From a virus, in the IMG/VR virus record IMGVR_UViG_3300007363_000119, positions 1 to 22,351 of that record: 22,351 nucleotides of DNA; one strand, 5' to 3'. Shown in pieces: positions 3,966-21,165 of this stretch; the first letter of the stretch is position 1, and every line of letters starts with the position of its first letter. A program made the translations under genes and the position numbers. The notes under the pieces are model-generated. The model did no database searches. It saw nothing but the letters and a program-made list of their open reading frames with translations, and was not told the origin of the DNA.

Positions 3966-4178
3966 ATGAGCGAACCCATAGCATTAAGAACCTATGAAGC
4001 TCCCTATTACTGTCAAAATTGCCATGCAAGTCATAACTATAAGTTCCCCTTTGGTACAATAGCGGCAGCGAAAGATATGCGTTGTAAAAACTGCGGGGTT
4101 TCGAAAAAGGAAATAATGGATTTTATCGCAGAAGAACATAAAAATCACATGGGAGGGCAGCTCGCAAAGCCCTTATGA
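3966..4178 (+). CDS. Small zinc-ribbon protein
   Basis: This 70-residue protein has two CxxC knuckles, C16-x2-C19 (YYCQNCHAS) and C40-x2-C43 (MRCKNCG), about 20 residues apart. They would bind one zinc ion as a ribbon, and a helical acidic tail follows. Such proteins commonly bind nucleic acid or protein partners; the specific role is unknown. The start has AAGGAGAGAGG just upstream. The stop overlaps the ATG of the HNH gene (ATGA), so the pair is probably co-translated. Confidence 0.6.
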   Translation: MSEPIALRTYEAPYYCQNCHASHNYKFPFGTIAAAKDMRCKNCGVSKKEIMDFIAEEHKNHMGGQLAKPL

Positions 4179-4450
4179 GTGACTACGCCAGACGCAGAAA
4201 GAGGTTCAGGCGTAAGATTTGGGAATCGTCTGAAAAGAAATGTTTTTACTGTAGAATTGATTTGGTTTGGGGTGGAGATCCAAAGGCCGACAATGCTTTT
4301 ACGATAGAACATCTCAAAGCGAGAGTTTATGGAGGCAAAACGAACCGAGCTAATTGCAGGGCTGCTTGTAATAAATGTAACAGGGAAAAAGGTTGTAAAA
4401 ATATGCTTGAGTTTCTGGTGCAAAAGGACAAAGACCGAAAAGCTAGTTAA
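4175..4450 (+). CDS. HNH endonuclease
   Basis: A 91-residue compact HNH nuclease. After a basic leader (RRRKRFRRK), C23-x2-C26 (CFYC) and C65-x2-C68 (CNKC) form the structural zinc site. TIEHLKARVYGG at 43-54 gives the catalytic His (H46), and N60 with CNREKG (68-73) complete the motif. The size and the zinc pairs fit phage HNH proteins that nick or cut DNA. Many tailed phages carry an HNH gene just upstream of the terminases, where it can assist packaging, and this copy sits about 700 bases before the small terminase. It overlaps the zinc-ribbon gene by four bases. Confidence 0.85.
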   Translation: MSDYARRRKRFRRKIWESSEKKCFYCRIDLVWGGDPKADNAFTIEHLKARVYGGKTNRANCRAACNKCNREKGCKNMLEFLVQKDKDRKAS

Positions 4451-4709: not shown

Positions 4710-5132
4710 ATGAAATTAAACATAATAAGCAAAAAGTTAATGATAGATAGCTTACTAACAGAGCAAGTACAGGGATCAACCCATTATCATAACTCAGTAA
4801 GCCCAGAGCACCGTCTACTCTGGGCCATGCTATCAAGAGCAATAGAGGACTCAATCGGTAACGTAGGGGCAAACATTAACGAATACGAAACCCCTACAAT
4901 CATAAGAGATGCTTACTGCTGGATTATGTATCCCAAATGGCTAAAGGACTATCACCTATTTTCATTCGAAAACGTATGCCAAGAGCTTGAAATAAACCCC
5001 TTAATAATCCGTAAATTCGTAGCAAACCAAAACAAAAAGCCGATTGATCAAAGGTCATACCGGGGCAGAATGAGAAACTATACTAAAGCACACAACAAAA
5101 AAGGCGCAGGCAGGCCAAAACAAATCGTTTAA
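4710..5132 (+). CDS. Conserved phage protein upstream of terminase
   Basis: This 140-residue protein resembles a widespread but uncharacterised phage family. Its helical core carries HRLLWAMLSRAIEDSIG (34-50), RDAYCWIM (66-73) and FSFENVCQELEINPLIIRKFV (84-104). The last block looks like a helix-turn-helix. The tail is very basic (RSYRGRMRNY) and ends in GAGRPK (132-137), an AT-hook-like element. DNA binding is therefore likely by inference. It starts three bases after the preceding stop with no SD, suggesting re-initiation. Immediately after its stop comes the 19-base repeat that precedes the small terminase gene. Confidence 0.55.
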   Translation: MKLNIISKKLMIDSLLTEQVQGSTHYHNSVSPEHRLLWAMLSRAIEDSIGNVGANINEYETPTIIRDAYCWIMYPKWLKDYHLFSFENVCQELEINPLIIRKFVANQNKKPIDQRSYRGRMRNYTKAHNKKGAGRPKQIV

Positions 5133-5146
5133 CCTATCCAAGAATT
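5128..5146 (+). repeat. 19-base leader repeat, copy A (upstream of terS)
   Basis: TTTAACCTATCCAAGAATT occurs here and, identical over all 19 bases, at 13595-13613. In both places it directly follows a gene end and begins 44 or 45 bases before a start codon without an SD. It is a candidate promoter or operator of the late genes. No clear -35/-10 pair of host type is shared downstream of both copies. Confidence 0.6.
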
Positions 5147-5157
5147 AATAAGGTATG

Positions 5158-5176
5158 CCCATTAATAATAAATGGG
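5158..5176 (+). promoter_or_regulatory. Inverted repeat enclosing the terS start codon
   Basis: CCCATT (5158-5163) and AATGGG (5171-5176) are perfect complements around a seven-base loop. The ATG at 5172-5174 lies within the right arm. No SD is visible upstream. The hairpin could hold translation of the small terminase down, or simply be chance in AT-rich DNA. Confidence 0.35.
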
Positions 5177-5648
5177 AAAAGGTGGACGACCTAGAATCTT
5201 CAATTCAAAAATAGAAGATAAAATACTAGAAAGATTAGAGAATGGAGAGTCAGCGAGATCAATCTGCTTAGATGAAGATATGCCTTGCTGGTCTACATTA
5301 TGCAAACACTTAAGAGAAAACCTAGAGTTTTCAAACCAATACGCACGTGCGAAGCAATACGGAATAGAGCACAGGTTGGATGAGGCTTATACAAGGGCAT
5401 TAGACGAAAGCCGGGATGTCATTGAGGACGTAGTTCACAAAGAAAATGAGGACGGCTCAATCACTGAATTTGTTAAGAAGAAATCAGATAACACGGCGGT
5501 ACAGCGTGACAAGCTAATAATAGACCTAATCAAATGGGAAGCCTCAAGACTTCATTCTAAGAAGTACGGCGACAAGATCCAGCAAGAAGTATCAGGACCT
5601 GAAGGAAAAGACTTAATACCAGTAATTAATATCAAAATAGAAAAGTGA
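5172..5648 (+). CDS. terS: Terminase small subunit (Sf6 gp1-like)
   Basis: This 158-residue protein has the layout of Sf6-type small terminases. A GGRPRIF start is followed by an N-terminal helix-turn-helix (IEDKILERLENGESARSICLDEDMPCWSTLCKHLREN, about 14-50), then EFSNQYARAKQYGIEHRLDEA (52-72), a central oligomerisation helix region, and the terminal block WEASRLHSKKYGDK (about 126-139). In the family it forms a ring that recognises the packaging site and recruits the large subunit. It lies directly upstream of the large terminase and overlaps it (GTGA). Recognition rests on sequence pattern and position. Confidence 0.85.
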   Translation: MGKGGRPRIFNSKIEDKILERLENGESARSICLDEDMPCWSTLCKHLRENLEFSNQYARAKQYGIEHRLDEAYTRALDESRDVIEDVVHKENEDGSITEFVKKKSDNTAVQRDKLIIDLIKWEASRLHSKKYGDKIQQEVSGPEGKDLIPVINIKIEK

Positions 5649-7084
5649 CAGCCCTTGATTTAAGCCTGCATAAAAAACAAGGACTAGCCTTACTATCAGA
5701 CGCAACTGAAATAGGGTATGGAGGGGCAGCAGGCGGCGGCAAATCGCATTTAGGAAGGGTATCAGCGATATTCTTTTGCGTATCAGTACCCGGCCTGCAG
5801 GTCTATCTCTTTAGGAGGCAATCAAACGAGCTAGTAAAGAACCACATGGAAGGACCTACTTCATTCCCTGCCATGCTTCATTCATGGGTAAAGGCTGGAC
5901 ATTGCCGCATAGTAAAGAATGAGATCAGATTCTGGAACGGCTCTAAAATATTCTTATGCCATTGTCAGCACGAAAAGGATGTATTTAACTGGCTTGGACC
6001 TGAAATGCATTACCTGATCATAGAACAGGCTGAACAGTTTACGCCGTTTATGCTTCAGATGTTAAGGGGTAGAAATCGAATACCTGAAGCACTTGAAATA
6101 CCTGAAGAATACAGAAAGCTATTCCCAAGAGTATTATATACCTTCAATCCGGGCGGTGTAGGCCATGCATATTTCAAATCTAAATTTGTTAAAGCCCTAA
6201 AGCGTGATAGTTCCGGAGTATCTGAGATAGTCCTTCAGCCTGATGAGGAAGGGGGAAAGCTAAGGCAATTCATACAAGCTAAACTTGACGATAATCCATC
6301 AGTAAATCCAATTGAGTACAGAAAGACATTAAGAGGCTTACCACCAAGAATGGCAAAAGCCCTTGAGGAAGGCGATTTTGATCAGGTAGTCGGCGCATTC
6401 TTTCCTGAAATTGATAGAAGAAAACACTTAATCAAGCCTTTTGTAATACCAGCACACTGGACACGCATCATGTCAATGGACTGGGGAGCGTGCGGAGAGG
6501 GTGATCCTTTTTCTGTTGGTTGGTGGGCTGTATCAGATGGCGTTAATACAACCTATCCAAGAAATTCTCTAATCTGCTATCGAGTATGGTACGGCGCAGG
6601 ACTGCCAAAAGTAACAGCTACTCAGGTAGCGCAAGGCATTCTGAAGCGAGAAGAACAGGAGATTAAACCCATAGTTAGGGTTGCAGGGGGTGACATTGAG
6701 CAGAAAAGGGGACACGGACCGAGCATCTTTGAAATCTTTGCACAGGAAGGGGTTCACTTCTCAAGAGCTGATCAGCGCAGACAGCCGGGACACTTACAGA
6801 TGCGTGAAAGGCTAGTTGGAAAGAACGATAAGCCAATGATCTACTGGTTTGAGCAGTATGAGGACATTTTAGAAACTATTATGAACTTACAGCACGATTT
6901 ACACGACCCAAATGACTGCACAGATAACGATGATCATAACGCTGAACAAACAAGATACATGTGTATGACAAGACCGTGGGTAAGGGATATAGATCCAGTC
7001 GATTTACCATTTGAAGAACAATTTAGACCACCAACATTAGATGAATTATGGAAGATAACCGAGCAGAACAGGAGCAGATTTTGA
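5645..7084 (+). CDS. terL: Terminase large subunit (packaging ATPase and nuclease)
   Basis: This 479-residue motor pumps DNA into the prohead and cuts it. The ATPase half has Walker A GGAAGGGKS (26-34), a Walker B region LIIEQAEQF (124-132) and the coupling motif TFNPGG (166-171). The RNase-H-like nuclease half has motif I MDWG with D279, motif II GGDIEQ with D350, and motif III DHNAEQTRY (430-438). The usual Walker B Asp-Glu reads E127-Q128, and the motif III Asp is E434 followed by Q435. Both are unusual. The GTG start at 5645 overlaps the stop of the small subunit; the next ATG would delete Walker A. Its start has no SD, so it likely depends on coupling. Confidence 0.93.
   Translation: MTALDLSLHKKQGLALLSDATEIGYGGAAGGGKSHLGRVSAIFFCVSVPGLQVYLFRRQSNELVKNHMEGPTSFPAMLHSWVKAGHCRIVKNEIRFWNGSKIFLCHCQHEKDVFNWLGPEMHYLIIEQAEQFTPFMLQMLRGRNRIPEALEIPEEYRKLFPRVLYTFNPGGVGHAYFKSKFVKALKRDSSGVSEIVLQPDEEGGKLRQFIQAKLDDNPSVNPIEYRKTLRGLPPRMAKALEEGDFDQVVGAFFPEIDRRKHLIKPFVIPAHWTRIMSMDWGACGEGDPFSVGWWAVSDGVNTTYPRNSLICYRVWYGAGLPKVTATQVAQGILKREEQEIKPIVRVAGGDIEQKRGHGPSIFEIFAQEGVHFSRADQRRQPGHLQMRERLVGKNDKPMIYWFEQYEDILETIMNLQHDLHDPNDCTDNDDHNAEQTRYMCMTRPWVRDIDPVDLPFEEQFRPPTLDELWKITEQNRSRF
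6550..6563 (+). repeat. 14-base core of the leader repeat, copy C (inside terL)
   Basis: AACCTATCCAAGAA here matches the core of the intergenic repeats at 5131-5144 and 13598-13611. It is coding sequence (TYPR). It may be an internal promoter or binding site, or a chance match, though a 14-base match is unlikely by chance in 22 kb. A weaker 12-base relative, GCCTATCCAAGA, lies at about 8393-8404 in the portal gene. Confidence 0.4.
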
Positions 7085-7236
7085 AAAAACCATCAGTAAA
7101 TAAGCAAGTTAAAGCATTCGGAATGAATCGGCTAAGAAAAATGGGTTACAAAGAGGCTGATTGCAGGGCAATTCTTGCTAAGTCATTTAGAGAGCTAAAA
7201 GAAGCTTGGATTAACCATTACGGGAAGATTCAGTAA
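7081..7236 (+). CDS. Small basic hypothetical protein between terL and portal
   Basis: A 51-residue basic helical protein (VNKQVKAFGMNRLRKMGYKEADCRAILAKSFREL). I choose the TTG at 7081: AGGAG at 7070-7074 is six bases upstream, and the start overlaps the terL stop as TTGA, the junction style used throughout. An in-frame ATG at 7048 would give 62 residues but lacks an SD and lies 37 bases inside terL. The protein is a compact helical bundle of unknown function. Its TAA overlaps the portal ATG (TAATG). Confidence 0.5.
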   Translation: MKKPSVNKQVKAFGMNRLRKMGYKEADCRAILAKSFRELKEAWINHYGKIQ

Positions 7237-9761
7237 TGGCAATTCCTAAAGCAGTAGGCAAAAGATACAAAGAGTCTTTAAAAAAGAAGAAAGCAGAGCC
7301 GTATGATAAGGACAGGGCATTAGTAGACCGCTGGCTTAAGGAAATATCGGTAGTTCAGCAGAATAGACGGCAGCAATCCTTCGAGAACATTGGCCAGAGA
7401 ATATTAGATAAATTCAGGAATAAATCGGATGTAGACACCGTAGGGACTGACCGCTGGCAGTCTAACGTGATGTTCAACGTTTTATGGTCTAACGTGCAGG
7501 TTTTAGAGCCAGCGTTATATTCAAGAATGCCAAAGGTAGTTGTAGAGAGAACCTTTAAAGACTCAGACCCGATTGGAAGGTTAGCCTGTGAAGCAGCGGA
7601 AAGGGCAACCCATTTTAATCTAATGAGGCAGCAGGATAAGTTTAACTACATCATGTCAGGAGTAGTTCAGGATAGATTGCTACCCGGCAGGGGCATTTGC
7701 AGACTTCAATACAATGCTGACTTTGTCCCAATGTTTGATATTACAGAAGATGATGACGAGGGCGACAACGAACCAGAACCAATCGTAGATGAGTCAGGCC
7801 ATCAGATAACCGAAGTAAAGCCTTATTCTGAGTCTGTAGACGTAGTTCCTGTTTACTGGCTTGATTACCTTGAATCACTATCAAGAAATCAACTAGAGGT
7901 ACGCTGGCGTGCTTTTAGGATATATAAAACGAGGGCTGAACTACTCCAAGACCCACAAATAGATCCAGAGTGTGCAAAGCATATCCAGCTGGGTACAGAG
8001 CCAAGTAAGCCTAGAAGGTTTTCTAATTACGATAACCAAGACGATCAGGAGTTTTCTAAGCAAGCAAGTATCTGGGTGATTGAGGACTTTACAACACGAA
8101 AAGTCTACTGGATATCAGAAGGATATAAAGATAAGCCGCTTAAAGTCTTAGAGGATCCAAATAAGATTAAAGACTTTTTCTCATGCCCTTACCCATTAAC
8201 CGCAACGACCACCACAGAATCAACGTATCCCACGGCTGATTATGTAATCTATCAGGGTTTAGCAGATGAGTTAAATTACACAGCCTCAAGAATTAAAGGA
8301 ATTGTTAATTGTATCCGCCTAGTAGGTGCTCACGCTGCATCGTTTAACAAGGAAATGAAGAATATCACCAGTTTAAAAGATGGTGAAACATGGCCTATCC
8401 AAGACTGGGGCGGTTTTGTAGAAAAGCAAGGCTTTAAAGGTATGCTTGATTGGGTTCCTTTTGATAGTTGCGTGGCAGCCCTTCCAGCCCTGCAGGAATA
8501 TCAAAGAAGCTTAAAAGAGCAGATTGATGAAATAACCTCAATGCCTGATATCGTAAGAGGCAGTTCAGATCCTAACGATCCAGTATACACACAGCAGCAG
8601 AAATCACACTGGACAGTAATTAAGCTAATCAAAAAGCAGCAGGATGTTCAAAGGTATTGCAGAGAGTTAATTTCTAAAATGGCGCAAATGATATTTGAGC
8701 CGGGATTTTTCACTGACGAAACCCTGTATCTTATGGCTGGAATAGGGCAGATGCCGCCTGAAAAACAGCAGCTATGGCCTGAAGCTTTAGCATTGTTACG
8801 AGATGACCGTCTAAATACTTTCAGAATTGATATTGAAACAGATTCTACAATAGCCATTGATGAAGCAGAAGCAGCATCACGCTGGGGGCAGTATATGGCT
8901 AATCTTAAGGGCATCATTGGTGATGTAGCGAATATATCAGAAACCACACCTGAATTTGTAAACCCAGTAATTGAGACAGCCCTTCAGTACGCAAGGTCTT
9001 TAAGAACAGGACGATCCGTTGAGGGTGCTTTAGAAAAATCAATGGAGGAATGGGATAGGAAAATCAAAGAAATGCAGGCTAATCCACCACAAACACCCCC
9101 AGATCCAGCCATAATTAAAGCTCAAGTGGATGGGGAAAAGAATCAGATGGACTTTCAAATCAAACAGCAGGAATTAGGGCTTAAGAATCAAGAATTTCAG
9201 TTTAAAACCTACATAGAACAGCAGCAATTAATGCTTGATAGTCAGAAAAATGAAGCTGATTTTATAGTTAAGAGCGAAAAGAACCAGATAGACGCAGGAG
9301 AGCAATTAACCAGAGGCCAGATTGATAAGATGCTGGCTGATATCGATATTTTCCAAGCTGAATTTAAGAATAAATTAGAAGAATTTAAGATAGCCACTCA
9401 AACACAGATTGAGCGTGAGAGATTAGACTTTGACAAGAAAGCCAAGATTTTAGAAGTCCAAGAAAAGATCATGGAAGAAAATCGCATGGCTAAAGATCAA
9501 GCTTTAGAGCATAAGCGCATGTTACTTGAGCATAAGCAGGCAATGCACGAAGTTAAGGAATCAACTAAAGCAGCTAAAGAAGGTAAGTCAGACGGTGAAA
9601 AGAAAGAGAAAAAATCCGATCCGGTAATAGTTAATACTGGCCCTGTTACAATGACAGCACCAGAAAAAGAACCACCACCTAAAAAGTCAGGAAAAAAGAA
9701 ATATAAGTTAAGAAAGAATAACGATGGCACCTATGAAGCCGAATCAGAGGAATTAGATTAA
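7236..9761 (+). CDS. Portal protein
   Basis: This 841-residue protein follows the terminase and has the length and organisation of P22-like portals, which form the dodecameric ring for DNA entry and exit. The N-terminal half carries NVLWSNVQVLEPALYSRMPKV (about 81-101), an acidic loop near 171-182 (EDDDEGDNEPEP), and a middle region with conserved aromatic blocks (CPYPLTATTTTESTYPTADY, near 312-331). From about residue 616 a Pro-rich hinge leads into a very long Gln/Lys/Glu-rich coiled coil (about 625-775), then a Lys/Pro-rich linker and KYKLRKNNDGTYEAE. The long C-terminal helix region is comparable to the P22 portal barrel. It is joined to its neighbours by TAATG overlaps. Confidence 0.85.
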   Translation: MAIPKAVGKRYKESLKKKKAEPYDKDRALVDRWLKEISVVQQNRRQQSFENIGQRILDKFRNKSDVDTVGTDRWQSNVMFNVLWSNVQVLEPALYSRMPKVVVERTFKDSDPIGRLACEAAERATHFNLMRQQDKFNYIMSGVVQDRLLPGRGICRLQYNADFVPMFDITEDDDEGDNEPEPIVDESGHQITEVKPYSESVDVVPVYWLDYLESLSRNQLEVRWRAFRIYKTRAELLQDPQIDPECAKHIQLGTEPSKPRRFSNYDNQDDQEFSKQASIWVIEDFTTRKVYWISEGYKDKPLKVLEDPNKIKDFFSCPYPLTATTTTESTYPTADYVIYQGLADELNYTASRIKGIVNCIRLVGAHAASFNKEMKNITSLKDGETWPIQDWGGFVEKQGFKGMLDWVPFDSCVAALPALQEYQRSLKEQIDEITSMPDIVRGSSDPNDPVYTQQQKSHWTVIKLIKKQQDVQRYCRELISKMAQMIFEPGFFTDETLYLMAGIGQMPPEKQQLWPEALALLRDDRLNTFRIDIETDSTIAIDEAEAASRWGQYMANLKGIIGDVANISETTPEFVNPVIETALQYARSLRTGRSVEGALEKSMEEWDRKIKEMQANPPQTPPDPAIIKAQVDGEKNQMDFQIKQQELGLKNQEFQFKTYIEQQQLMLDSQKNEADFIVKSEKNQIDAGEQLTRGQIDKMLADIDIFQAEFKNKLEEFKIATQTQIERERLDFDKKAKILEVQEKIMEENRMAKDQALEHKRMLLEHKQAMHEVKESTKAAKEGKSDGEKKEKKSDPVIVNTGPVTMTAPEKEPPPKKSGKKKYKLRKNNDGTYEAESEELD

Positions 9762-10087
9762 TGACAAGGAAGCTTTTATCTAACAACATGTGGGATAATA
9801 ACCCAGCTATTCCACTAGCTTTTGAGGGTGATGAGGTTACAGGATTATCTCAGGTTGTAACAATAGGCGGCGGCTCCGGCGTTAATCCGCTTAATTCATA
9901 TCAAATATCAGATTTAGATGAGGCTACATCTACAAAGTATTACGGCTTTTTAAATACTGATGGCGACTGGTACATATTAAAATTAACAAGTACAGAGGCG
10001 AGGTATGCAGCAGGCACTTCAAATTACGCTACTAACTGGACTGGCCGTGCTGGATTAACTTACGATTATTTTAATGCGGTATTCTAA
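9761..10087 (+). CDS. Small virion-associated protein
   Basis: A 108-residue protein that begins right after the portal stop (TAATG). Its C-terminal two thirds (YQISDLDEATSTKYYGFLNT, DGDWYILKL, then SNYATNWTGRAGLTYDYF) resemble small beta-rich proteins often found next to phage fibre genes. A flexible Gly-rich link (IGGGSGVNP) precedes this part. It may be a fibre adaptor or attachment module for the two large beta-helix proteins that follow; this is inferred from position and composition. Confidence 0.55.
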   Translation: MTRKLLSNNMWDNNPAIPLAFEGDEVTGLSQVVTIGGGSGVNPLNSYQISDLDEATSTKYYGFLNTDGDWYILKLTSTEARYAAGTSNYATNWTGRAGLTYDYFNAVF

Positions 10088-11805
10088 TGGCATTTGTATT
10101 TAATCCTATAACCGGAAAGCTTGATAAGGTTACGCAGATAGGAGATCCAACGGGCGGAACATGGGGATCTGTTTTATTTGTAGATTCAAGTGGCAATCTT
10201 AAACAGGATAATACCGGCAGCCCTAATTATTACGGGATAACAGCATTTAATAATACTTCCGATCCAGCAAATAGCTCTTTAAGAGTAGGTAATGCCGCTG
10301 GCGGCGGTTATTTGTATGTAGGACAAGCAACGATAGAGGGGAGCAATCCCGTTTCTCTTGTTGGAAATGGACAGGTAAACTCAAATTCAGGGGGGCTTTA
10401 TTATTTTGATTTTATCGAGGAAGGTTTTAAGAGACTAGCTGATTATAACTATTCAACAGAAACATTTTATTTCGGCCCTCATAGTTCCCAAACATCAACA
10501 ACACAAACAGAGCTTGGCACAATTTCAGTTATTAAAGATGACGGAACGGTAACACACTACAAGCCATCAACAGATTCAAATGCTAACAGGGGGGCGGCAT
10601 TAGTAACAGCAATGAGCGCAGCCGCTGCAGGCGATACGGTTAGAATCGGGGCAGGAACTTATCAGATAAACTCAACACTTACGCCGCTTGATAATATGTC
10701 TATAATCGGGATAGGTAATCCGATAATTGTCACAAATGCATTTAGTGACGGCACACCAGCTATCACACTTCAAAATGATAATATAACTATTCAAGGCATT
10801 ACAGTTCAATCAAATACTACTTGCTTAGGACTTCATTCAGCAACACCGACAACTATCAGCAATTTAATAATAAGAGATGTAGTAGCAACTGTAACAGATA
10901 CGGATGCAAACGCCTTAATGTTTTCACAGAGTCATGGCGGAGGAAATACAGAGCATTTAGTCACAGCAAATATTTATAATTCAAGATTTATAGGCGGTAC
11001 TTCTGCCGGATTCGGATCTTATGCATCTTTGCAAACAGGTTCATTAATGAACTTCTATGATTGCCATATTTACGGCGCTACAGATGGATATTTACATAAG
11101 AACAGCTCAGGAACTTCTACAGGCGTAACAAATATATTCGGCGGTCAGGCTTATTCAGTTCTAGATGCAGTTACTTCAGGCGGTACGGGTAACGTAATTA
11201 ATTGTTATGGAGTTTATGCAAGCGGCGATCAGGCTGATTTTTACGGAGATGATGGCACTGTAAATATTTATTGGTGTATAGCAGCGCACGGCTCAAGCTA
11301 CATAGTAGGTAACGGAATAAACAGGGCTATTATAAATACTGCAATCGGTGATATTGAAACGGTGGACGGGGATATATTATTTACAAGCTTTGGAGGTTCA
11401 CCAGATGCAGGGGTTCAAAGAGTAGGGGCAGCGCAATTAAAAATCACTGATGGAAGTACCGGGATCGGCGGCTTAAGATTTGCGCCGAGAGTAGGCAGCA
11501 CCACAAGCTCAGCAACTCCAACAATCAATACAGATAATGTTGATGCTTACTCAATTACGGCACTGGCAACGGCAATAACTTCATTTACAACTAATCTTTC
11601 GGGAACGCCGTCAAATTTTCAAAAGCTTACTATCAGGATTAAAGATAACGGAACTGCAAGGGCTATAACTTGGGGATCATCTTTTCAAGCAATGGGCGCT
11701 GCACTTCCTACAACTACAGTTATAAGCAAAGTGCTAACAGTAGGATTTATTTACGATACGGTGGCGGCTAAATGGGGATGTGTGGCAAGCGCACAGGAGG
11801 CGTAA
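10087..11805 (+). CDS. Tailspike/fibre-like right-handed beta-helix protein
   Basis: This 572-residue protein starts with MAFVFNPITGKLDKV, a short adaptor sequence found at the start of many phage fibre proteins. Residues about 165-240 (GAALVTAM, AAAGDTVRIGAGTYQI, LDNMSIIGIG, ITIQGITVQ) match the pectate-lyase-like parallel beta-helix that covers host polysaccharide. Short repeated rungs rich in Gly, Asn, Thr and Ser continue to about 430. The C-terminal ~95 residues (TINTDNVDAYSITALAT, then GTARAITWGSSF) match a common phage fibre end domain. No catalytic pair can be assigned by eye. It probably binds or degrades surface glycans, or decorates the capsid. Confidence 0.7.
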   Translation: MAFVFNPITGKLDKVTQIGDPTGGTWGSVLFVDSSGNLKQDNTGSPNYYGITAFNNTSDPANSSLRVGNAAGGGYLYVGQATIEGSNPVSLVGNGQVNSNSGGLYYFDFIEEGFKRLADYNYSTETFYFGPHSSQTSTTQTELGTISVIKDDGTVTHYKPSTDSNANRGAALVTAMSAAAAGDTVRIGAGTYQINSTLTPLDNMSIIGIGNPIIVTNAFSDGTPAITLQNDNITIQGITVQSNTTCLGLHSATPTTISNLIIRDVVATVTDTDANALMFSQSHGGGNTEHLVTANIYNSRFIGGTSAGFGSYASLQTGSLMNFYDCHIYGATDGYLHKNSSGTSTGVTNIFGGQAYSVLDAVTSGGTGNVINCYGVYASGDQADFYGDDGTVNIYWCIAAHGSSYIVGNGINRAIINTAIGDIETVDGDILFTSFGGSPDAGVQRVGAAQLKITDGSTGIGGLRFAPRVGSTTSSATPTINTDNVDAYSITALATAITSFTTNLSGTPSNFQKLTIRIKDNGTARAITWGSSFQAMGAALPTTTVISKVLTVGFIYDTVAAKWGCVASAQEA

Positions 11806-13212
11806 TTGGCAAATAGATACTGGGTAGCAGCAGCACAACAAAACTGGAATGACACAACATACTGGTCAGATACTTCAGGCGGTGCAGGCGGCTTTTCTGT
11901 TCCGGGTTCTAGTGATGACGTTACTTTTAACGGTAGCGGAGTAGGTAACTGCGTAATCAATGCAGCGGTCAATGTAAACTCTTTAAATATCGCATCCGGC
12001 TACACTGGTACTTTTAACAATGCGACTAACGATCAAAGCATAACAGTTGCGGGAAATTGCACATTAAACGCAGGAACGGTAACAGCAGGCGATGCGACTT
12101 GGACAATCGGCGGTAATTTTTCAAATGCTTCAACGGCATTCACGGCTAACCTTTCAACGGTTGTTTTAACTGGATCGGGGGTAACTCTTACATCAAGTAA
12201 CTCAGATGACTTTTATAATCTTACAATAGCGTCAGGGGCAACGGTTACTAATTCAGGTAATATTGATATTAACGGCAGCGGCGCTATTTTACAAATAGAT
12301 GGCACGCTTACAATGAACACAAGCACGCTAAGGTTGAATACCGGGGGGTGTTCATTAAGAGTATCATCAACAGGGATATTGCAAGGTACAGGAACGTTGC
12401 AGCTTTTAATTGACACAAGATGCACACAGCAAGACGGACAGATAACGATTGCAAATATGATTATGGAATCACGCCATGCAACGGCAAATAGCTTAGTTCC
12501 GGGAACTTATGAATCGCCTAGCGTATTATTCAGAAATGGCGACGCATTAACAAGAGTCTTTGAACTTCAATCGGGTACTTATATCTTTACTGGCGACGTC
12601 CAAATAGCAAATACTAATTCAGGAACTTACAATTTTAACTGCAACGTAAACAATCCTAATATTGAATTTCGGGGAAACGTAACACTTTCAGCAAGTGCAG
12701 GAACACTTAACTATAATAAGGGAACTGGCACAATCACACTTGCACCAGCTTCAGGAACTAAAACAATTAATTTCTTTGATAAATTTGTAGAGGACATAGA
12801 AATAGACGGAGCCGGAACGGTACAATTAACAGATGGCGTTATTACTGATTCTTTTACAGGCACTACAGGAACAATTGATTTTAACGGCCAGAGCATAGAG
12901 ACAAACAATAATTTCACATTAACATCAGGCTGTAACATTATCTCAGATGCCGATGCTATGAACGCATGCAGCATACTAGTAGGGGGTGACTTTTTAGCCG
13001 AGGGTTCAAACGGCGACTTGCTGGACTTAGGCGCTACAGCAAGCTGGACTTTATGGGTAGTAGGTTCAGCGAGTGCGGATTATGTAAATGTAGAGTATTC
13101 GGATGCATCTTCAGGCACGACAATTGATGCAACTAACTCAACAAACGGCGGTAACAACTTAAACTGGAACTTCATAACAGCAAGTTCTGGAAATATGTTT
13201 TTGGTGTTTTAA
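11806..13212 (+). CDS. Repetitive beta-helix virion/adhesin-like protein
   Basis: This 468-residue protein opens with a module common in phage surface proteins (RYWVAAAQQNWNDTTYWS, GGAGGFSVPGSSDDVTFNG). It continues as regular beta rungs with INAAVNVNSLNIASG, SNASTAFTAN and SGATVTNSGNIDINGSG-type repeats, and ends in TNSTNGGNNLNWNF. The composition is rich in Thr, Asn, Gly and Ser with few charges, as in extracellular beta-solenoids. It is probably a second fibre or capsid-surface protein working with the preceding spike-like protein. The TTG start at 11806 directly follows the upstream stop and has a full AGGAGG at 11795-11800; no nearer ATG fits. Confidence 0.65.
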   Translation: MANRYWVAAAQQNWNDTTYWSDTSGGAGGFSVPGSSDDVTFNGSGVGNCVINAAVNVNSLNIASGYTGTFNNATNDQSITVAGNCTLNAGTVTAGDATWTIGGNFSNASTAFTANLSTVVLTGSGVTLTSSNSDDFYNLTIASGATVTNSGNIDINGSGAILQIDGTLTMNTSTLRLNTGGCSLRVSSTGILQGTGTLQLLIDTRCTQQDGQITIANMIMESRHATANSLVPGTYESPSVLFRNGDALTRVFELQSGTYIFTGDVQIANTNSGTYNFNCNVNNPNIEFRGNVTLSASAGTLNYNKGTGTITLAPASGTKTINFFDKFVEDIEIDGAGTVQLTDGVITDSFTGTTGTIDFNGQSIETNNNFTLTSGCNIISDADAMNACSILVGGDFLAEGSNGDLLDLGATASWTLWVVGSASADYVNVEYSDASSGTTIDATNSTNGGNNLNWNFITASSGNMFLVF

Positions 13213-13592
13213 TGCCGATAGCAGCCCTAAGACCCTATCACTGGTTTGACATAGGCGGAATAAAGCTTAAGGAAACGCCTTTAGTTAAAGAAGAATCAAA
13301 AGAAGCTGACGAAATAACCCTTGAGCTTGAGGAATCACAGATTGTTGAAACTCCAAAACCAAGCCCTAAACCATTAACATTAAAAGAAATATATCCAAAA
13401 CCTCCTAAGCCTAAAATTGATTATGAGGCTATAAGGCTAAAACAAGCAAAAGAGAGAGAGGCTTTAAGGGCAATTAAAGAAAAATTAAGGCTTGAGGCTA
13501 AGGCGGCAGCAGAGCGACACGCTAAGAAACTGGAGGAAGAAGCAAGGGAGCATGAAGAAGTATTATCCCTAGTCATTTTCCTTGATGATTAA
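13212..13592 (+). CDS. Lys/Pro-rich, coiled-coil hypothetical protein
   Basis: A 126-residue protein with three zones: a short N-terminal globular piece (PIAALRPYHWFDIGGIKL), a Pro/Lys/Glu-rich extended linker (about 45-68, with PKPSPKP and PKPPKPK), and a charged helix (about 72-117) likely to form a coiled coil, ending in a hydrophobic tip (VLSLVIFLDD). It may tether or extend a virion structure. The family is not recognised. A TAATG overlap joins it to the preceding beta-solenoid gene. After its stop comes the second copy of the 19-base repeat. Confidence 0.55.
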   Translation: MPIAALRPYHWFDIGGIKLKETPLVKEESKEADEITLELEESQIVETPKPSPKPLTLKEIYPKPPKPKIDYEAIRLKQAKEREALRAIKEKLRLEAKAAAERHAKKLEEEAREHEEVLSLVIFLDD

Positions 13593-13594
13593 AA

Positions 13595-13613
13595 TTTAAC
13601 CTATCCAAGAATT
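13595..13613 (+). repeat. 19-base leader repeat, copy B (upstream of the scaffold block)
   Basis: TTTAACCTATCCAAGAATT, identical to 5128-5146, begins three bases after the stop of the upstream gene and 45 bases before the ATG at 13640. Like the terS leader, this leader has no SD. It is a candidate promoter for the scaffold and capsid genes. Confidence 0.6.
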
Positions 13614-13624
13614 TTTAATATCCC

Positions 13625-13634
13625 GTACTAGTAC
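13625..13634 (+). promoter_or_regulatory. Perfect 10-base palindrome in the leader
   Basis: GTACTAGTAC is its own reverse complement and is bracketed by CCC on both sides, six bases before the ATG at 13640. A CCC...GGG pairing (13634-13636 with 13642-13644) also encloses the start codon, echoing the terS leader. Possible operator; no binding protein is identified. Confidence 0.35.
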
Positions 13635-13639
13635 CCTTA

Positions 13640-14116
13640 ATGGGGAAGATAATCTCTAAAATTCATAATTACGGGCATGAGCACGAATCAGAATGGCCTC
13701 CACGCTTTGGGACACGTACTAATTTAATCACGCCTAAAGAAAAGAAGAAATACGAGTCAAAATCAGCATTTGTACATCAGGATTCTTTTAAAAGCCCACT
13801 AAGACACCCAAAAACAGGGGAAATGGTGGATTCAATGACCCGATGGAATGAAATCAATAAAGAGCACAAATTGGAATGCGTAGGAAATGACTTACTTTCT
13901 AAGTACAAACCTGACTTCAAAGACAAGATTACAGAGGAAAGATTCAACGATGCTTATGAGCAGGCATGGAGCATAGAAACTGACCCTTTCAAGCGCAGTC
14001 AGCAGAGAAATAAACAACGAGAAGAATTAGAAAAACACTATGACGCACAGGCTAAAACCATGCGTCCTTCAATGTCTAAAGCGGAAATGATGCAAATGCT
14101 GGGGTATGACAAATGA
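13640..14116 (+). CDS. Conserved phage protein upstream of scaffold
   Basis: A 158-residue protein matching a common but uncharacterised phage family located near portal and scaffold genes. The block AFVHQDSFKSPLRHPKTGEMVDSMTRWNEINKEHKLECVGND (about 43-84) carries the recurring features: a strand, KSP, a TGE turn, a helix with conserved charged residues, then CVGND. The remaining half is helical and ends in SKAEMMQMLGY. It is a likely minor morphogenesis factor. Start: ATG with no SD, following the 19-base repeat. Its stop overlaps the scaffold ATG. Confidence 0.6.
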   Translation: MGKIISKIHNYGHEHESEWPPRFGTRTNLITPKEKKKYESKSAFVHQDSFKSPLRHPKTGEMVDSMTRWNEINKEHKLECVGNDLLSKYKPDFKDKITEERFNDAYEQAWSIETDPFKRSQQRNKQREELEKHYDAQAKTMRPSMSKAEMMQMLGYDK

Positions 14117-15336
14117 ACGATCATAAATTTATGGATGGAATACTGGATCAGGCTCAGGAGCAAATCAGCTCAAATACTGAGGTAGAAGCACCAGTAACAG
14201 AACAGGTTGAAACACAGACCACAGATGAGCAGCATGAGGATATCGCTGTAAAAGAAGCCCTTGAATCAAAAGAAGAAAAGAAAAAGCCATCAATCAGGGA
14301 TATGGCTAAAAAGGCACTTAAGGCAGAAACAGGCCAAAAAGAAGTGCCAGAAAAAGAAGAAGAAACAGAACAAGTCACTGACCAAGAAGCTGATACAGAC
14401 GTTGAAATAGAAGAAGAAGCGCACGCCGCAGAGCCTGCCGCCGAACCTATTAAACCTCCCGTATTTTGGTCAGCCGAAAGAAAGAAACTGTTTGAGAAAG
14501 CAGCACCGGAATTGCAAAAAGTAATTGCGGACCGTGAGCTTGAACTTCAACAGCAGATTAGTCGGGCAGCTAGGGAAGGAAGTAACGGAAGCTATGAAAA
14601 GCGTTTTTATGAAGATTTTGAATCGCCAGAGGCAGCAAACCTTCATAAAGCGAAACTTAAAGCTCAGGGCATTAACGATCCTATAGCAGAATTACATCGC
14701 TATAGAGCATGGGACAGAGTAGTAGAGGCTGATCCTTTAGCAGTATGCGCTGACCTTCTAAGAAAAAATGGCTATTCACCGCATGACCTTCTAAACGAAG
14801 CAAGCGAGGTACAAAGAGAACCAAACCAGTATCAGGATCCAAGAGTTGATGAGGCTATTAAGCGTGCCGAAGCAGCTGAAAAGAGGATGCAGGAATGGGA
14901 AGCTAATCAAGAGATCGCCAGAAAGGCTCAGTTCGTCAATTCCTTTAAAGAGGGATTAGACTCAACAGGGCAAAAGAGGAAGGATTTCTGCGAGCTTTAT
15001 TCATTCCAGATTGATCAGGCTTTTCAGAATGCAAAGGCAGAATATCCAATGGCTACAGATGAGCAGCTATTAGATCATGCTTATGAAAGTGTAAAGGCAG
15101 CAGTGAGCCAGTTTCACGGAGCATCAGCAGCGCCAAAACCAGAAGTTAAACCACAGCCAACTAAAGAAGAAAGAATTGCTAATGCAAAGAAAGCTTCAGC
15201 AGCTGCAAGCAAATCTTTTGGCGGACCTAATACCGGAACAGTTTCTCAGAAACCTCGTTTAAAAGGAAAAAACTTTAGCGAGAAATTTGATAGCGCATTT
15301 GAAATAGCCGCAGCAAGGGTAAATTCAGCGCACTAA
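14113..15336 (+). CDS. Scaffolding protein
   Basis: This 407-residue protein lies just upstream of the major capsid gene, as scaffolds do. It has a long acidic, Glu/Thr-rich disordered N-terminus (1-112), then PPVFWSAERKKLFEKAAPELQKVIADRE (115-142), a block typical of scaffold proteins in many podoviruses. A helical, coiled-coil-rich middle (about 140-330) follows, then an Ala/Lys/Pro-rich tail and a short C-terminal helix (NFSEKFDSAFEIAAARVN), which may be the capsid-binding end. Scaffolds guide prohead assembly and then leave. No protease motif is visible. ATGA overlap with the preceding gene. Confidence 0.75.
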   Translation: MNDHKFMDGILDQAQEQISSNTEVEAPVTEQVETQTTDEQHEDIAVKEALESKEEKKKPSIRDMAKKALKAETGQKEVPEKEEETEQVTDQEADTDVEIEEEAHAAEPAAEPIKPPVFWSAERKKLFEKAAPELQKVIADRELELQQQISRAAREGSNGSYEKRFYEDFESPEAANLHKAKLKAQGINDPIAELHRYRAWDRVVEADPLAVCADLLRKNGYSPHDLLNEASEVQREPNQYQDPRVDEAIKRAEAAEKRMQEWEANQEIARKAQFVNSFKEGLDSTGQKRKDFCELYSFQIDQAFQNAKAEYPMATDEQLLDHAYESVKAAVSQFHGASAAPKPEVKPQPTKEERIANAKKASAAASKSFGGPNTGTVSQKPRLKGKNFSEKFDSAFEIAAARVNSAH

Positions 15337-15356
15337 TTTCTCATTACAATGAGGAA
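15337..15356 (+). promoter_or_regulatory. Hairpin overlapping the SD of the major capsid gene
   Basis: An inverted repeat of eight pairs (one T-G) with a four-base loop (TACA, 15345-15348) fills most of the 30-base gap between scaffold and capsid genes. Its right arm contains GAGGA (15351-15355), the only SD-like run before the ATG at 15367. It may stabilise the capsid mRNA end or modulate initiation. Confidence 0.45.
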
Positions 15357-15366
15357 TTTAATTTAA

Positions 15367-16341
15367 ATGACAAGTCCAAATGCAAATTTTGCTGGTGACC
15401 TGTTATCGACAACAGCACAGCTGTTACAAGATGACCTGTTTGACCAGATTTTAACTAAAAATGCTACTACCGCAGTACTAAAAGAAAATGGAATGGTGAC
15501 TGGTGGTGATTGGGGTATCTCAATCGCTATTCCAATCATGTATGCCGAAAACGGATCTTACTTCAGGTATTCAGGCTCTCAGCAGCTTAATACTAGTTCA
15601 AATGAAGTATTTAGCGTGTTTCAGTATGAACCAAAGCAGATTGCTTTGAACGTACAGGCAAACGGCAGGGAAATACACCAGAACAGAGGTCCGGGGCAGA
15701 ACAGAAATCTAGTTAAAGCTAGGTTTATGAATGCCAAAACTACCTTTGAAAATCAGTTCAATATCGATGTCCTATCAGCTGGTTTACTTTCAAATCAGAT
15801 TGGTGGACTTCAGCAGTTAATCTCTGCTGACGGTACAGGAACAGTAGGAGGTGTTTCACGCTCTGCTTATTCTTTCGCAAAGAATCAGTTCTACAGAGCT
15901 ACTACTGACGGCGGCGCTGCACTAAGTGCATCAAATATCATCACCTACATGGATAGGCTTGATATTCTATTGCAGTCTTACAAAGCGAACATTACAGCAA
16001 TCGTATCTGATAATGACAGTTATCAGTATTACGAAGCTACTGTACATCCGCTTCAGAGATTAGCACCAACAGAAGGAACACTAGGAAAACTAGGATTCAG
16101 AACTTATCAGTACAAACAGGCTGAAGTAGTTCTTGAGCCAACAGTATCCGGTATGCCTTCAAAAACTCAGTACTGGCTAGATCCAGAAGTGTTAGAGCTT
16201 TGCTTTTATAACGGAAGAAACCTAACAAGATTGGATACTCGCTATTCATTTAACCAAGACGCACAGATCGAATATCTGGCATGGATGGGTAACCTGACTG
16301 CTAAGAATTTCCGACGCCTTGGAACTTTAAACAACGACTAA
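15367..16341 (+). CDS. Major capsid protein
   Basis: This 324-residue protein, in the position after the scaffold, has features of HK97-fold coat proteins of podoviruses. An N-terminal helix (LLSTTAQLLQDDLFDQIL) is followed by the strand-rich stretch SVFQYEPKQIALNVQANGREIHQNRG (about 93-118). A long spine-helix candidate (NLVKARFMNAKTTFENQFNIDVL) leads into a loop with GTGTVGGVSRSAY, and the C-terminus ends in TRYSFNQDAQIEYLAWMGNLTAKNFRRLG. It would form the icosahedral shell. The leader has only a weakly spaced SD inside a hairpin, unusual for the most abundant virion protein. Confidence 0.8.
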   Translation: MTSPNANFAGDLLSTTAQLLQDDLFDQILTKNATTAVLKENGMVTGGDWGISIAIPIMYAENGSYFRYSGSQQLNTSSNEVFSVFQYEPKQIALNVQANGREIHQNRGPGQNRNLVKARFMNAKTTFENQFNIDVLSAGLLSNQIGGLQQLISADGTGTVGGVSRSAYSFAKNQFYRATTDGGAALSASNIITYMDRLDILLQSYKANITAIVSDNDSYQYYEATVHPLQRLAPTEGTLGKLGFRTYQYKQAEVVLEPTVSGMPSKTQYWLDPEVLELCFYNGRNLTRLDTRYSFNQDAQIEYLAWMGNLTAKNFRRLGTLNND

Positions 16342-16356
16342 GGGAGGAAATAGAAA

Positions 16357-16905
16357 ATGGCATTATCAGGAATTTTTCCAGTAACAATAGCTCAGGCACA
16401 GTTTGAGCAGACATACACAGCGATCAATGGGGATGACAAATCATTTCCCGGCTGGAAGCTAGGTGATGTTTGTATCGATAACTTGGGCGGTCAGTGGATT
16501 TTCGTCAAAGCAGGCGAACTTCTAACGCAGTATTCGCTATGTGTAGTTCTTAACTCATCACTTGAGGATGGAACTTACGTGGCAAACATGGTCGAAGCAG
16601 CAGACATAGCAACAGGACCTAAGATACTTGGTGTCAATCAGGTAGCTATAGCATCCGGTTCTTATGGCTGGTTACATCGTGGTCCCGGTGGACGTTACGG
16701 ATCTGGTCTTAAAATCAGAGCTGAAAACGCAACTAAGGGAGCACTTCTACATCCGCTGTCTGGTACAGCTGGTGCAGTAGACGATGCAAACGTGGATGAA
16801 GGCGTTATTGCAGGACTTCAGACTTTAGTAACTACAACTACTTTAACAGCAGTTGAGTACATAGCTACTACTATTCTGACTTGCAACCTAACAGAAGTCG
16901 ACTAA
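16357..16905 (+). CDS. Putative capsid decoration protein
   Basis: A 182-residue beta-rich, acidic protein directly after the major capsid gene, with a strong GGGAGG SD at 16342-16347. Repeated short strands and turns (GDVCIDNLGGQWIFVKAG, ILGVNQVAIASGSYGWLHRGP, then KGALLHPLSGTAGAV) fit the gpD/DUF2190-like decoration proteins that stabilise expanded capsids. The intrinsic terminator right after it implies high-level co-expression with the capsid protein. The function is inferred from position and composition. Confidence 0.6.
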   Translation: MALSGIFPVTIAQAQFEQTYTAINGDDKSFPGWKLGDVCIDNLGGQWIFVKAGELLTQYSLCVVLNSSLEDGTYVANMVEAADIATGPKILGVNQVAIASGSYGWLHRGPGGRYGSGLKIRAENATKGALLHPLSGTAGAVDDANVDEGVIAGLQTLVTTTTLTAVEYIATTILTCNLTEVD

Positions 16906-16920
16906 CAGCTAACTTTTAAA

Positions 16921-16949
16921 GGGGCTGTTAATTCAGCCCCGATTTTTTT
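16921..16949 (+). terminator. Rho-independent terminator after capsid and decoration genes
   Basis: GGGGCTG (16921-16927) pairs perfectly with CAGCCCC (16934-16940) around the loop TTAATT. A run of seven T (16943-16949) follows one GA step. It lies in the gap between the decoration gene and the next gene and is the only strong terminator I see in the window. Confidence 0.9.
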
Positions 16950-16959
16950 AGGGGAAAAT

Positions 16960-17676
16960 ATGGCAATTCAGAAACCGGGCATTAAAGGTCTTACCTATCA
17001 GGAAGATTATCAGCTAACAGACGACACACCGCCGACAGGCTGTCAGGTTCGTTTCTCAGTTGAGAAGGTCTACATGGTTGCAAAATCCAAAGAAGAAAAA
17101 AGGAGAGTCTATCAGGACTTTGTTTATATTAATTGGGTTAATGAACTAGGACGATCTACAGGCAGAGCCAGAATAAATGATGAAGTAAAATTCAACGAAG
17201 AAACTGGCAAATGGGACATTATCGCTCTGGATATACCTCAGAGAAGCCATATTACGCTTTTTCAGGATGAATGGAACATGTTCTATGACGGAATGCACTC
17301 AGAAGTTGCAGGCACTCCGCTGGCACTATTATTCCCATACAATCCTACAAGAGAGGACGTTTATAAAGCCTATCATATTACAACAATCGAGCAGCTTGAG
17401 AAATTAACTGATTCAGATTGTCAGCAGATTGGTATGGGGGCACTTGATGACCGCAATAAGGCCAGAAAATACATGAATAGTATTAACGGCAATATCGGCG
17501 CAATCGAGTTTAACGCTGCTTTAGCTGAAAAGGATTCAGAAATCAGTTCTTTGAAAGGTCAGTTAGCTGATCTATCTGAGAAGTTTGCAAAGTTCTTAGA
17601 AGCTCACAGCGAAAAGGAAGAAAAAGTTATTCCAGCTAAAAAATCAAAAGTTAAACAAGAAATAACAGGAGCATAA
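16960..17676 (+). CDS. Conserved virion protein with C-terminal coiled coil
   Basis: This 238-residue protein resembles a phage family often located after the capsid genes. Its beta-rich first half contains QDFVYINWVNELGRSTGRA. GTPLALLFPYNPTREDVYKAYHITTIEQLEKLTDSDCQQIGMGALDDRNKARKYM (118-172) forms a helix-hairpin-like module, with short helices arranged as in HhH-type elements. A coiled coil (about 187-215) and a Lys-rich tail follow. It may be a minor head or head-completion protein that contacts DNA. AGGGG before the ATG is the SD. It is the first gene after the terminator, so it needs readthrough or an unseen promoter. Confidence 0.6.
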   Translation: MAIQKPGIKGLTYQEDYQLTDDTPPTGCQVRFSVEKVYMVAKSKEEKRRVYQDFVYINWVNELGRSTGRARINDEVKFNEETGKWDIIALDIPQRSHITLFQDEWNMFYDGMHSEVAGTPLALLFPYNPTREDVYKAYHITTIEQLEKLTDSDCQQIGMGALDDRNKARKYMNSINGNIGAIEFNAALAEKDSEISSLKGQLADLSEKFAKFLEAHSEKEEKVIPAKKSKVKQEITGA

Positions 17677-17680
17677 GAAA

Positions 17681-18175
17681 ATGAAACAAGTATTACTATC
17701 ATTAATATTAATATTAGGACTTGCTACAGCTGCAAATGCACAGCCAACAGCACAGGATCTATCTAATGGATGCGGATTACCAGAAGTAAATTGTACATCC
17801 AAAATAATAGATTTAACTGATGGCAGTTCACCGGGTGAGTTTACAAGTTTAGAAGCAACAGAAAGCTTGCTTGCAAGTTCTGAAACAGTTGCAGGTGCAG
17901 GAACAACCGTAGCAGATGCAGCGCAGCTATCAGCTACAAAGATAGTTCATAGGATAACTGGAGCTAATGGCACAGTCGGCTGGAAGATGTCAGCTAGTAT
18001 GCCAGTGAATTCAGTTCAAATCTTACTGAATACTACAGCTGGTGTAGCAAAGATTTATGCAGAGTCAGGCGGCACTGTAAACGGTGGTTCAGCAGATGCG
18101 GCTTTTTCTGCCTTAACAGGCATTAAACCGATTATTTGCATAAAAACAGCAGCATTAACTTATTTGTGTGCATAA
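17681..18175 (+). CDS. Exported virion-region protein with Sec signal peptide
   Basis: This 164-residue protein has a textbook signal peptide: MKQ, the hydrophobic core VLLSLILILGLATA, then a signal peptidase I site ANA before Q21. The mature part is small, beta-rich and Ala/Thr/Gly-rich (GWKMSASMPVNSVQILLNTTAGVAKIYAESGGTVNGGSADAAF, about 100-142), like small phage structural beta-sandwich domains. It carries four cysteines (C31, C38, C153, C163) that could form two disulfides in the periplasm. An SD (AGGAG) is present upstream. Export is unusual for a gene in a head-morphogenesis cluster. It may act in the envelope or be a structural protein with a hydrophobic N-terminus. Confidence 0.6.
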   Translation: MKQVLLSLILILGLATAANAQPTAQDLSNGCGLPEVNCTSKIIDLTDGSSPGEFTSLEATESLLASSETVAGAGTTVADAAQLSATKIVHRITGANGTVGWKMSASMPVNSVQILLNTTAGVAKIYAESGGTVNGGSADAAFSALTGIKPIICIKTAALTYLCA

Positions 18176-18178
18176 AAC

Positions 18179-19249
18179 ATGAAAAAATTACTAATTGCCT
18201 TATCCTTACTTATACCGTCTATCGCTCTTGCTGAATTTCCGGGGATAGTTAATAGCTCACAAGCTACACTATACGGATCTCAGCAAGAGTCCGGCCCTTT
18301 AGCAATGGACACTAAGGGCAATCTTTACGCAAGAGTTATAGACGGAGGCTCCGGCCTGTCTCAGTCTGTTATTCCTGTTAGTAATAATACAAGCCTTAAT
18401 GGGCTTGGCACAGCGCCTATAGGATACGCAAGGGCTACTACTGATGCTGCGGAGGCTGGGTCAACTACTACGGTTATTAACGCCACAGCGCATAGCGCTA
18501 GGGTAGGAGATGTTATTCAGTTTACTTCGGGAACTGCTACAAATTTAGATGCATGGTCTCCAGTAAGTGCAGTAACAGCAAATACCATAACTGTCTCGCA
18601 TGCATTTCCCTCAACAGTAGCAGCCTCAGATGGTTTTTATATTTTACGACCGGGGCCACTTTATACATCAGATCCGAGATTGACAGGCACAGGGGCAGGG
18701 TTACAGGTTTCTATTGATTCTGGGTATCAGACCACAGCAAGTGGTATCCTTAAGTTAGAAGACGCAGCCCATACAACAGGGGATGCAGGGGTTTCAGCTT
18801 TAGCTGTTAATTTAGGAAGTGCAGCTTTTGCAGCAACCGGAGCAGCTAATGATTATGTACAGTTTATTCAAGATGCAGACGGCAGAACAGCGGTAAATCC
18901 ATTCGGTGCTAATACTTCTAACTTTTGGAATGGTTGCGGAACTGCAACAGCTACAACATCAGACGTAGCAATTAAAGCTTCTGGTGGTGGTGGTGTAAGA
19001 AACTATGTAACTTCTGTCACTTGTGCTAGTTCAGATGCAGATAACGCAACTAATATAAATTTCAAAGACGGCTCTACAGTCGTGGCAGTAGGCGGTGTTA
19101 ATCAGATGGCTACAACTTCAGCCGGAACATTCTCAGCAGTTTTTTCAACCCCGATTAGAGGCACAGCAGCAACAGCATTCAACTTCAATACAGCGGTATC
19201 AACATCAAGTGTTATTTGCTGTGCAACTGGATTTACAAGCTCAAACTAA
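18179..19249 (+). CDS. Exported phage structural-like protein with Sec signal peptide
   Basis: This 356-residue protein again starts with a signal peptide: MKK, LLIALSLLIPSIA, cleavage after ALA at residue 18. The mature chain has a module seen in phage structural proteins (STTTVINATAHSARVGDVIQFTSGTA, about 94-119, then ANTITVSHAFPSTVAASDGFYILRP). Its C-terminal beta domain (RNYVTSVTCASSDADNATNINFKDGSTVVAVGG, then TPIRGTAATAFNFNTA) includes cysteines. No enzyme motif is seen. It starts three bases after the previous stop with no SD, so it is coupled to the first exported protein. The two genes probably form a functional pair. Confidence 0.6.
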   Translation: MKKLLIALSLLIPSIALAEFPGIVNSSQATLYGSQQESGPLAMDTKGNLYARVIDGGSGLSQSVIPVSNNTSLNGLGTAPIGYARATTDAAEAGSTTTVINATAHSARVGDVIQFTSGTATNLDAWSPVSAVTANTITVSHAFPSTVAASDGFYILRPGPLYTSDPRLTGTGAGLQVSIDSGYQTTASGILKLEDAAHTTGDAGVSALAVNLGSAAFAATGAANDYVQFIQDADGRTAVNPFGANTSNFWNGCGTATATTSDVAIKASGGGGVRNYVTSVTCASSDADNATNINFKDGSTVVAVGGVNQMATTSAGTFSAVFSTPIRGTAATAFNFNTAVSTSSVICCATGFTSSN

Positions 19250-19252
19250 CCA

Positions 19253-19381
19253 ATGAAAACCCTAAGCTATATAACTGAAGGAATGTACATAGCAGGAGCT
19301 GGATTATTATTTCTTATATTAATAATCCCATTAATGGCAGGGGCTTTTCTTTATTCGATTGCGGAGAGTAGGTTTGAATGA
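19253..19381 (+). CDS. 42-residue single-pass membrane protein
   Basis: ATG at 19253, three bases after the upstream stop, opens a short frame ending at TGA 19379-19381, which overlaps the next gene's ATG (ATGA). The peptide has a short polar start (MKTLSYITEGMY), one long hydrophobic segment (about 13-36) and a charged end (AESRFE). It fits a small inner-membrane protein. It could be holin-like or a partner of the two exported proteins, but a single segment alone does not define a holin. Coupled start and stop at both ends make it a credible gene. Confidence 0.55.
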   Translation: MKTLSYITEGMYIAGAGLLFLILIIPLMAGAFLYSIAESRFE

Positions 19382-20631: not shown

Positions 20632-20635
20632 GTTT

Positions 20636-21163
20636 ATGTTTAAGAAATATAACGAACAAAAAAGCAAAAAAGCATTCCTTGAAAAGATTGAACGAGACGA
20701 ATCAGGCTGCTGGAATTGGAGTGCCTCCATGAAAAAGTTTGGTTATGGGCGTGCTAGCTATATGGGAAAACACGATCTCATGGCACATAGGGTATCTTGG
20801 ATGATATTTCGAGGCGAGATTCCTAAAGGGCTATACGTCTGCCATAAATGTGACAATAGAAAATGCGTTAAGCCTTCACATCTTTTCTTAGGGACGCATG
20901 ATGACAACATGAGAGACGGAGTAATAAAGAAACGTTTTTTAAGTGGTGAAAAAAGAAAGTTAGCTAATAACCCTAGAAAGGGAGAGGCTCACCATAATTC
21001 AAAACTTTCAGCCGAACAAGCTTTAAAAATTATTGAACTAAAGAAGGAGGGAAAAAGTTATACCGAGATCACATCTTTGATTGGTACTAATAGAGGAACG
21101 GCCTGCGATGTTGTATGCGGGCGCACATGGAGCCATGTTACAAACATTAACCCACCAAGTTAA
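20636..21163 (+). CDS. Free-standing HNH homing endonuclease
   Basis: This 175-residue protein has an HNH_3-type nuclease domain: GCWNW at 24-28, GYGR at 36-39, AHRVSW at 50-55, and VCHKCDNRKCVKPSHLFLGTHDDNMRD (68-94), with H70 and H82 and zinc-type cysteines C69, C72 and C77. A C-terminal helix-turn-helix follows (SAEQALKIIELKKEGKSYTEITSLIG, 125-150). Such enzymes cut an allele lacking the insertion and spread by repair. I use the ATG at 20636, four bases after the adaptor stop. The same frame extends up to 20567 but only inside the adaptor gene. It ends in NPPS, the same four residues as its upstream neighbour. It is an insertion in the virion cluster and not a structural gene. Confidence 0.85.
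   Translation: MFKKYNEQKSKKAFLEKIERDESGCWNWSASMKKFGYGRASYMGKHDLMAHRVSWMIFRGEIPKGLYVCHKCDNRKCVKPSHLFLGTHDDNMRDGVIKKRFLSGEKRKLANNPRKGEAHHNSKLSAEQALKIIELKKEGKSYTEITSLIGTNRGTACDVVCGRTWSHVTNINPPS
21148..21163 (+). repeat. 3' end repeat, right copy, at the end of the HNH gene
   Basis: TAACCCACCAAGTTAA differs from 20616-20631 by two transitions and is followed by AC and the ATG of the next virion gene. It probably represents the original adaptor/next-gene junction duplicated or captured by the HNH insertion. Confidence 0.5.
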
Positions 21164-21165
21164 AC

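Follow-up and report, generated by a model that had tools for sequence, protein, structure and literature searches.

A short element repeated at late gene junctions of a distantly Mx8-like podovirus, a probable late promoter or activator site

The phage carries at least three intergenic copies of one short element, all on the coding strand and each lying between the end of a gene and the next block. This repeat is real, conserved and specific to one clade, and it is most likely a regulatory word of a familiar general type, a late promoter element. We put the probability at roughly two in three that it serves as a phage-specific late promoter, or as the binding site of a late activator, made up of one contiguous element of ~14–16 bp (AACCTATCCAAGAATT). 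A DNA element from which late transcripts start would explain where the copies lie and on which strand, why the core is conserved while the flanks vary, and why the neighbouring genes make no difference, as described below. At gene junctions, the element would start separate transcripts for the terminase–portal, scaffold–head and distal tail or virion blocks. It would be read as double-stranded DNA, with transcription beginning in or just after it, and its reader would be host RNA polymerase that a specificity factor or activator encoded by the phage directs to it, comparable to the arrangement in phiEco32.

Copies of the element and their gene setting

The window, meaning the whole stretch of DNA that was analysed, corresponds to a 22,351-base virus record that is classed as linear and is probably a fragment. 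The initial annotation had reported identical 19-base stretches at two places, and this is confirmed: the repeat (TTTAACCTATCCAAGAATT) lies on the + strand at 5128–5146 (site A) and 13595–13613 (site B), with its 14-base core (CCTATCCAAGAATT) at 5133–5146 and 13600–13613. In shuffled sequences, the 19-mer was matched 0 times when up to 3 mismatches were allowed (expectation 0.00). The repeat was also correctly described as beginning near gene ends, as site A overlaps the stop of the ORF at 4710–5132 and site B starts 2 nt past the stop of the ORF at 13212–13592. Downstream, the ATG of terS follows 25 nt past the core end at site A, and that of the first scaffold-block gene 26 nt past it at site B. 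Non-coding sequence makes up ~1.9% of the late region (4710 to 22173), and both intergenic copies within the window fall in it.

A third intergenic copy lies past the window end, in IMG/VR record 3300025732_000367 (L086), which is identical to window positions 5725–22351 and extends 2.6 kb more. Here, an exact 16-base core (AACCTATCCAAGAATT) sits on the coding strand at L086 17972–17987, equivalent to 23696–23711 on the ruler of the window. The stop of the ORF at L086 16436–17962 lies 9 nt ahead of it, and 39 nt separate the end of this copy from the ATG of the ORF at L086 18027–18407. This third site is seen again in L235, a further record of the phage. A scan for the 16-mer returned 33 stretches, with more than one copy only in records of this phage. 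Within one phage, the same element stands ahead of several late blocks, each time on the coding strand (site A, site B and the L086 copy).

Site A is followed first by terS, an Sf6-type small terminase (5172–5648, + strand; Pfam PF20901, E 5.8e-29; PHROG 1482). The nameable remainder of this block comprises terL, a small ORF and the portal gene (5645–9761, + strand; PHROGs 979, 2 and 12082). The site B block holds two scaffold-region ORFs, the major head protein (phrog_9953) and the next ORF (13640–16905, + strand), is closed by a terminator-like hairpin and T-run (GGGGCTGTTAATTCAGCCCC GATTTTTTTA; 16921–16950, + strand), and has the same gene order in the relative L006 described below. Immediately upstream of the major head protein gene is a short inverted repeat (CTCATTACAATGAG, 15337–15366). 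The portal and head proteins share ~22–37% identity with those of annotated phages, namely Mx8 and Mx9 (Myxococcus), BUCT555 (Stenotrophomonas), ppBjS10J-1 (Bradyrhizobium) and the uncultured MW202489. Two HNH-type frames also occur in the window, one among the pre-terminase genes (4175–4450), which matches Pfam HNH, and one among the late genes (20567–21163), which appears homing-type by eye only.

Two further copies proposed in the initial annotation do not belong to this set. The 14-base core does recur exactly within terL (AACCTATCCAAGAA, 6550–6563, + strand), where it encodes TYPRN in the terL frame at a place where relatives have IPRG with different codons. Its conservation in L006 is ordinary, as terL contains longer identical runs of 38, 27, 27 and 26 bases, and no gene start lies downstream; we judge this copy to be a coding coincidence. 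The weaker relative near 8393 in the portal gene (GGCCTATCCAAGAC, 3 mismatches) lies inside coding sequence and is one of several near-background matches, and was set aside as noise. Overall, a core scan allowing mismatches gave 8 matches where 2.8 were expected, and three of the eight are the exact copies.

Conservation across lineages

The closest other lineage found is record 3300032083_002108 (L006), whose TerL and head protein are 92% and 96% identical to those of this phage at the amino acid level. The core, as CCTATC(C/A)AAGAATT, is present at both corresponding junctions. At L006 site A (6794–6807), all 14 bases are identical to the window core (CCTATCCAAGAATT), and the stop of the ORF 4710–5132 homologue lies 2 nt upstream; at L006 site B (13585–13598), 13 of 14 are identical (CCTATCAAAGAATT), just past the portal stop. 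Matches as good as these best junction matches of 14 and 13 bases arose in 0 and 1 of 1000 shuffles, respectively. The element is conserved more strongly than its flanks: between window and L006, 27 of 28 core bases are identical, but only 19 of 49 bases of the downstream spacers. Coding DNA of the two is at ~75–80% identity, and in terL 44% of the codons for identical residues differ. The conserved set comprises five sites in two lineages, three in this phage and two in L006.

The neighbours of the element are not constant. At L006 site A, the spacing of 25 nt is kept but leads to a non-homologous gene (6833–7414) that the window lacks, and at site B the portal gene lies directly upstream in L006, whereas ORFs 9761–13592 stand between the portal gene and site B in the window. 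Because the neighbours differ downstream at A and upstream at B, the element belongs to the junction and not to a gene. The four ORFs of window 9761–13592 that are absent in L006 include two long, repetitive ones that look beta-helix or adhesin-like by eye. The TerL frames of L006, L011, L012, L013 and L015 are themselves broken by insertions at differing places. In the L006 TerL (8624–11059), the extra stretch after residue 431 starts in an intein-like manner (CLHGDTSIQT...) and overlaps a frame with HNH-like sequence (10186–10842).

Judged by its presence in relatives, the promoter proposal receives a mixed answer: the motif occurs at the corresponding junctions of L006, but relatives whose head protein is ≤77% identical lack it, so that just two lineages support the element. 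When viral contigs were scanned for the core with its ATG spacing, the matches listed and checked beyond this phage included no family relatives except L164, which has a weak TerL match (25% identity); most of those checked had tiny downstream frames. Comparable repeats were sought in the other relatives, with nothing convincing except in L008. A repeat in L009, whose second copy falls at a coding start, was rejected. L008 contains a different 19-base repeat (17/19), ATAA(T/A)TCGTTCCCAAT(G/C)TT, at 2689–2707 and 5341–5359. Its copies immediately follow the terL and portal stop codons, and the second is followed by a terminator-like hairpin (by eye) ahead of the scaffold-region gene. This would fit a lineage-specific replacement, as a single case among the eleven loci looked through. 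As a wider motif the L008 pattern was discarded, since it occurs in four other contigs that are unrelated and show no family match.

Possible readers and alternative roles

From the core end to the ATG there are 25, 26, 25 and 24 nt at four sites and 39 nt at the third copy, where the 24 nt at L006 site B are counted to the second ATG of the ORF (13623) and not to the first (13605). The distance of 44–45 bases to the start codon proposed initially is as described at A and B, but it is not strict, as the third copy differs. Likewise, no Shine–Dalgarno sequence is detectable at 5172 (terS) or 13640 (the scaffold-block gene), in agreement with the initial annotation, but this is a weak feature because 14 of the 32 starts scored in the window also have none (10 of 28 in L006). 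At four of the five sites the spacer is short and has no Shine–Dalgarno sequence, as would suit mRNAs that are very short or leaderless, which we offer only as a suggestion.

The same features raise the question of whether the element acts as RNA, as a translation, processing or antitermination signal placed at the 5′ end of late messages or at a junction within a longer one. Every copy is on the transcribed strand, just past a stop and ahead of a start, and the four sites with 24–26 nt to the ATG are those without a Shine–Dalgarno sequence. The third copy does not follow this pattern, being 39 nt from an ATG that is preceded by its own Shine–Dalgarno-like GAGGGG. Folding of the four leaders gave neither a common nor a stable structure (z-scores of −0.6, 0.8, 0.3 and −1.6 relative to shuffles), an Rfam search returned no match, and no tRNAs were found. 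We grant an RNA-level role a small chance.

At the DNA level, no sigma-70-like promoter (−35/−10 with 16–18 nt spacing) was detected at A or B, and no −10-like hexamer is shared at a fixed offset. The element thus seems to be the whole conserved signal, and the missing fixed-distance −10 speaks against a simple host-polymerase-plus-activator layout. Models of sigma-70 region 2, sigma-70 region 4 and Ogr (PF04606) found nothing in the records of this phage or in L006, and nothing above the cut-off in more complete relatives. The distant L009 record gave one sub-threshold match to sigma region 4, and one gene of MW202489 is annotated as Ogr family by its depositors.

The ORF at 4710–5132 (+ strand), which ends on site A, encodes a small helical protein that may be a DNA-binding regulator reading the site, a guess from its position only. 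Divergent homologues occur in L006–L011 and L016, mostly close upstream of terS or terL; L010 has two copies. The protein has no family name in Pfam or PHROGs. Its predicted structure is helical at moderate confidence (pLDDT 74), no solved structure is similar, and only uncharacterised phage proteins resemble the model. A more far-reaching version of the promoter reading is that a novel type of phage transcription factor, perhaps this small helical protein by terS or an unrecognised sigma-like protein, reads the 14–16 bp element to give nearly leaderless late mRNAs, the element sequence being replaced lineage by lineage, with L008 having its own version. We regard this as unlikely.

The changing gene content beside the copies, with extra genes after site A in L006 and other genes before site B in the window, could also point to a recombination linker, a boundary sequence for module exchange that is kept since homology aids recombination. 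A length of 14–16 bp is short for homologous recombination, however, and a core kept at 27 of 28 bases with its flanks lost suggests binding. The same pattern would also be expected of a promoter placed at the edges of modules. We consider the linker quite improbable.

The initial annotation had raised a phage-encoded RNA polymerase as reader. A promoter for a single-subunit, T7-type enzyme would agree with one contiguous element that has no −10/−35 pair. The PF00940 polymerase model, which matched the T7 positive control at 1e-109, had no match in the complete genomes of four distant relatives (Mx8, MW202489, ppBjS10J-1 and BUCT555) or in fragments of closer relatives, and this makes such a reader unlikely. 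A chance repeat or a recent duplication without function would suit the distant relatives that have no motif, but is scarcely credible given zero shuffle matches, a third copy, and retention at the L006 junctions despite the divergence of the coding DNA.

A phage promoter or regulator site at the starts of late blocks is the best-supported reading, with five junction sites on the coding strand where the core is kept and the flanks are not. The terL copy, the portal match and the strict spacing do not form part of it.

Relation to known late control systems

Literature searches for a described motif returned nothing, and we came across no account of how late transcription is controlled in the distantly Mx8-like podoviruses, a broad group represented here mostly from metagenomes. 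The sequence of the element is new, while the kind of element is known. Late promoters of the T7, T3 and SP6 type consist of a single contiguous element repeated ahead of late blocks. The element described here shares that single contiguous form, but no polymerase gene turned up in any relative tested. Phage Mu C, P2 Ogr and T4 MotA act with the host polymerase at a conserved box that lies ahead of late or middle genes; in contrast to their promoters, our sites have no −10 at a fixed distance, and no Ogr member was found by PF04606. Lambdoid phages carry boundary sequences, short conserved words at module junctions where gene content changes, and the present element is likewise a short conserved word at junctions with changing gene content. 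To our knowledge, the same word at different junctions of one genome, as seen here, is not expected of a boundary sequence; a literature search on lambdoid boundary sequences returned nothing.

With sequence as the only input, the conserved site, a single element, marks out candidate late transcription units, and it offers bait for finding the regulator; its effect would be local to one lineage. In phiEco32, the middle and late promoters carry tAATGTAtA, which is read by the host RNA polymerase together with the phage sigma factor gp36 (PMC8948821). The phiEco32 relative 7-11 has late promoters at similar positions with a different sequence (PMC8948821). Our putative promoter element differs from that of phiEco32 in its sequence and in its length (14–16 versus 9 bp), and comes from a phage in whose available sequence no sigma factor was found. 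Like phiEco32, this phage has one contiguous element upstream of the late blocks of a podovirus.
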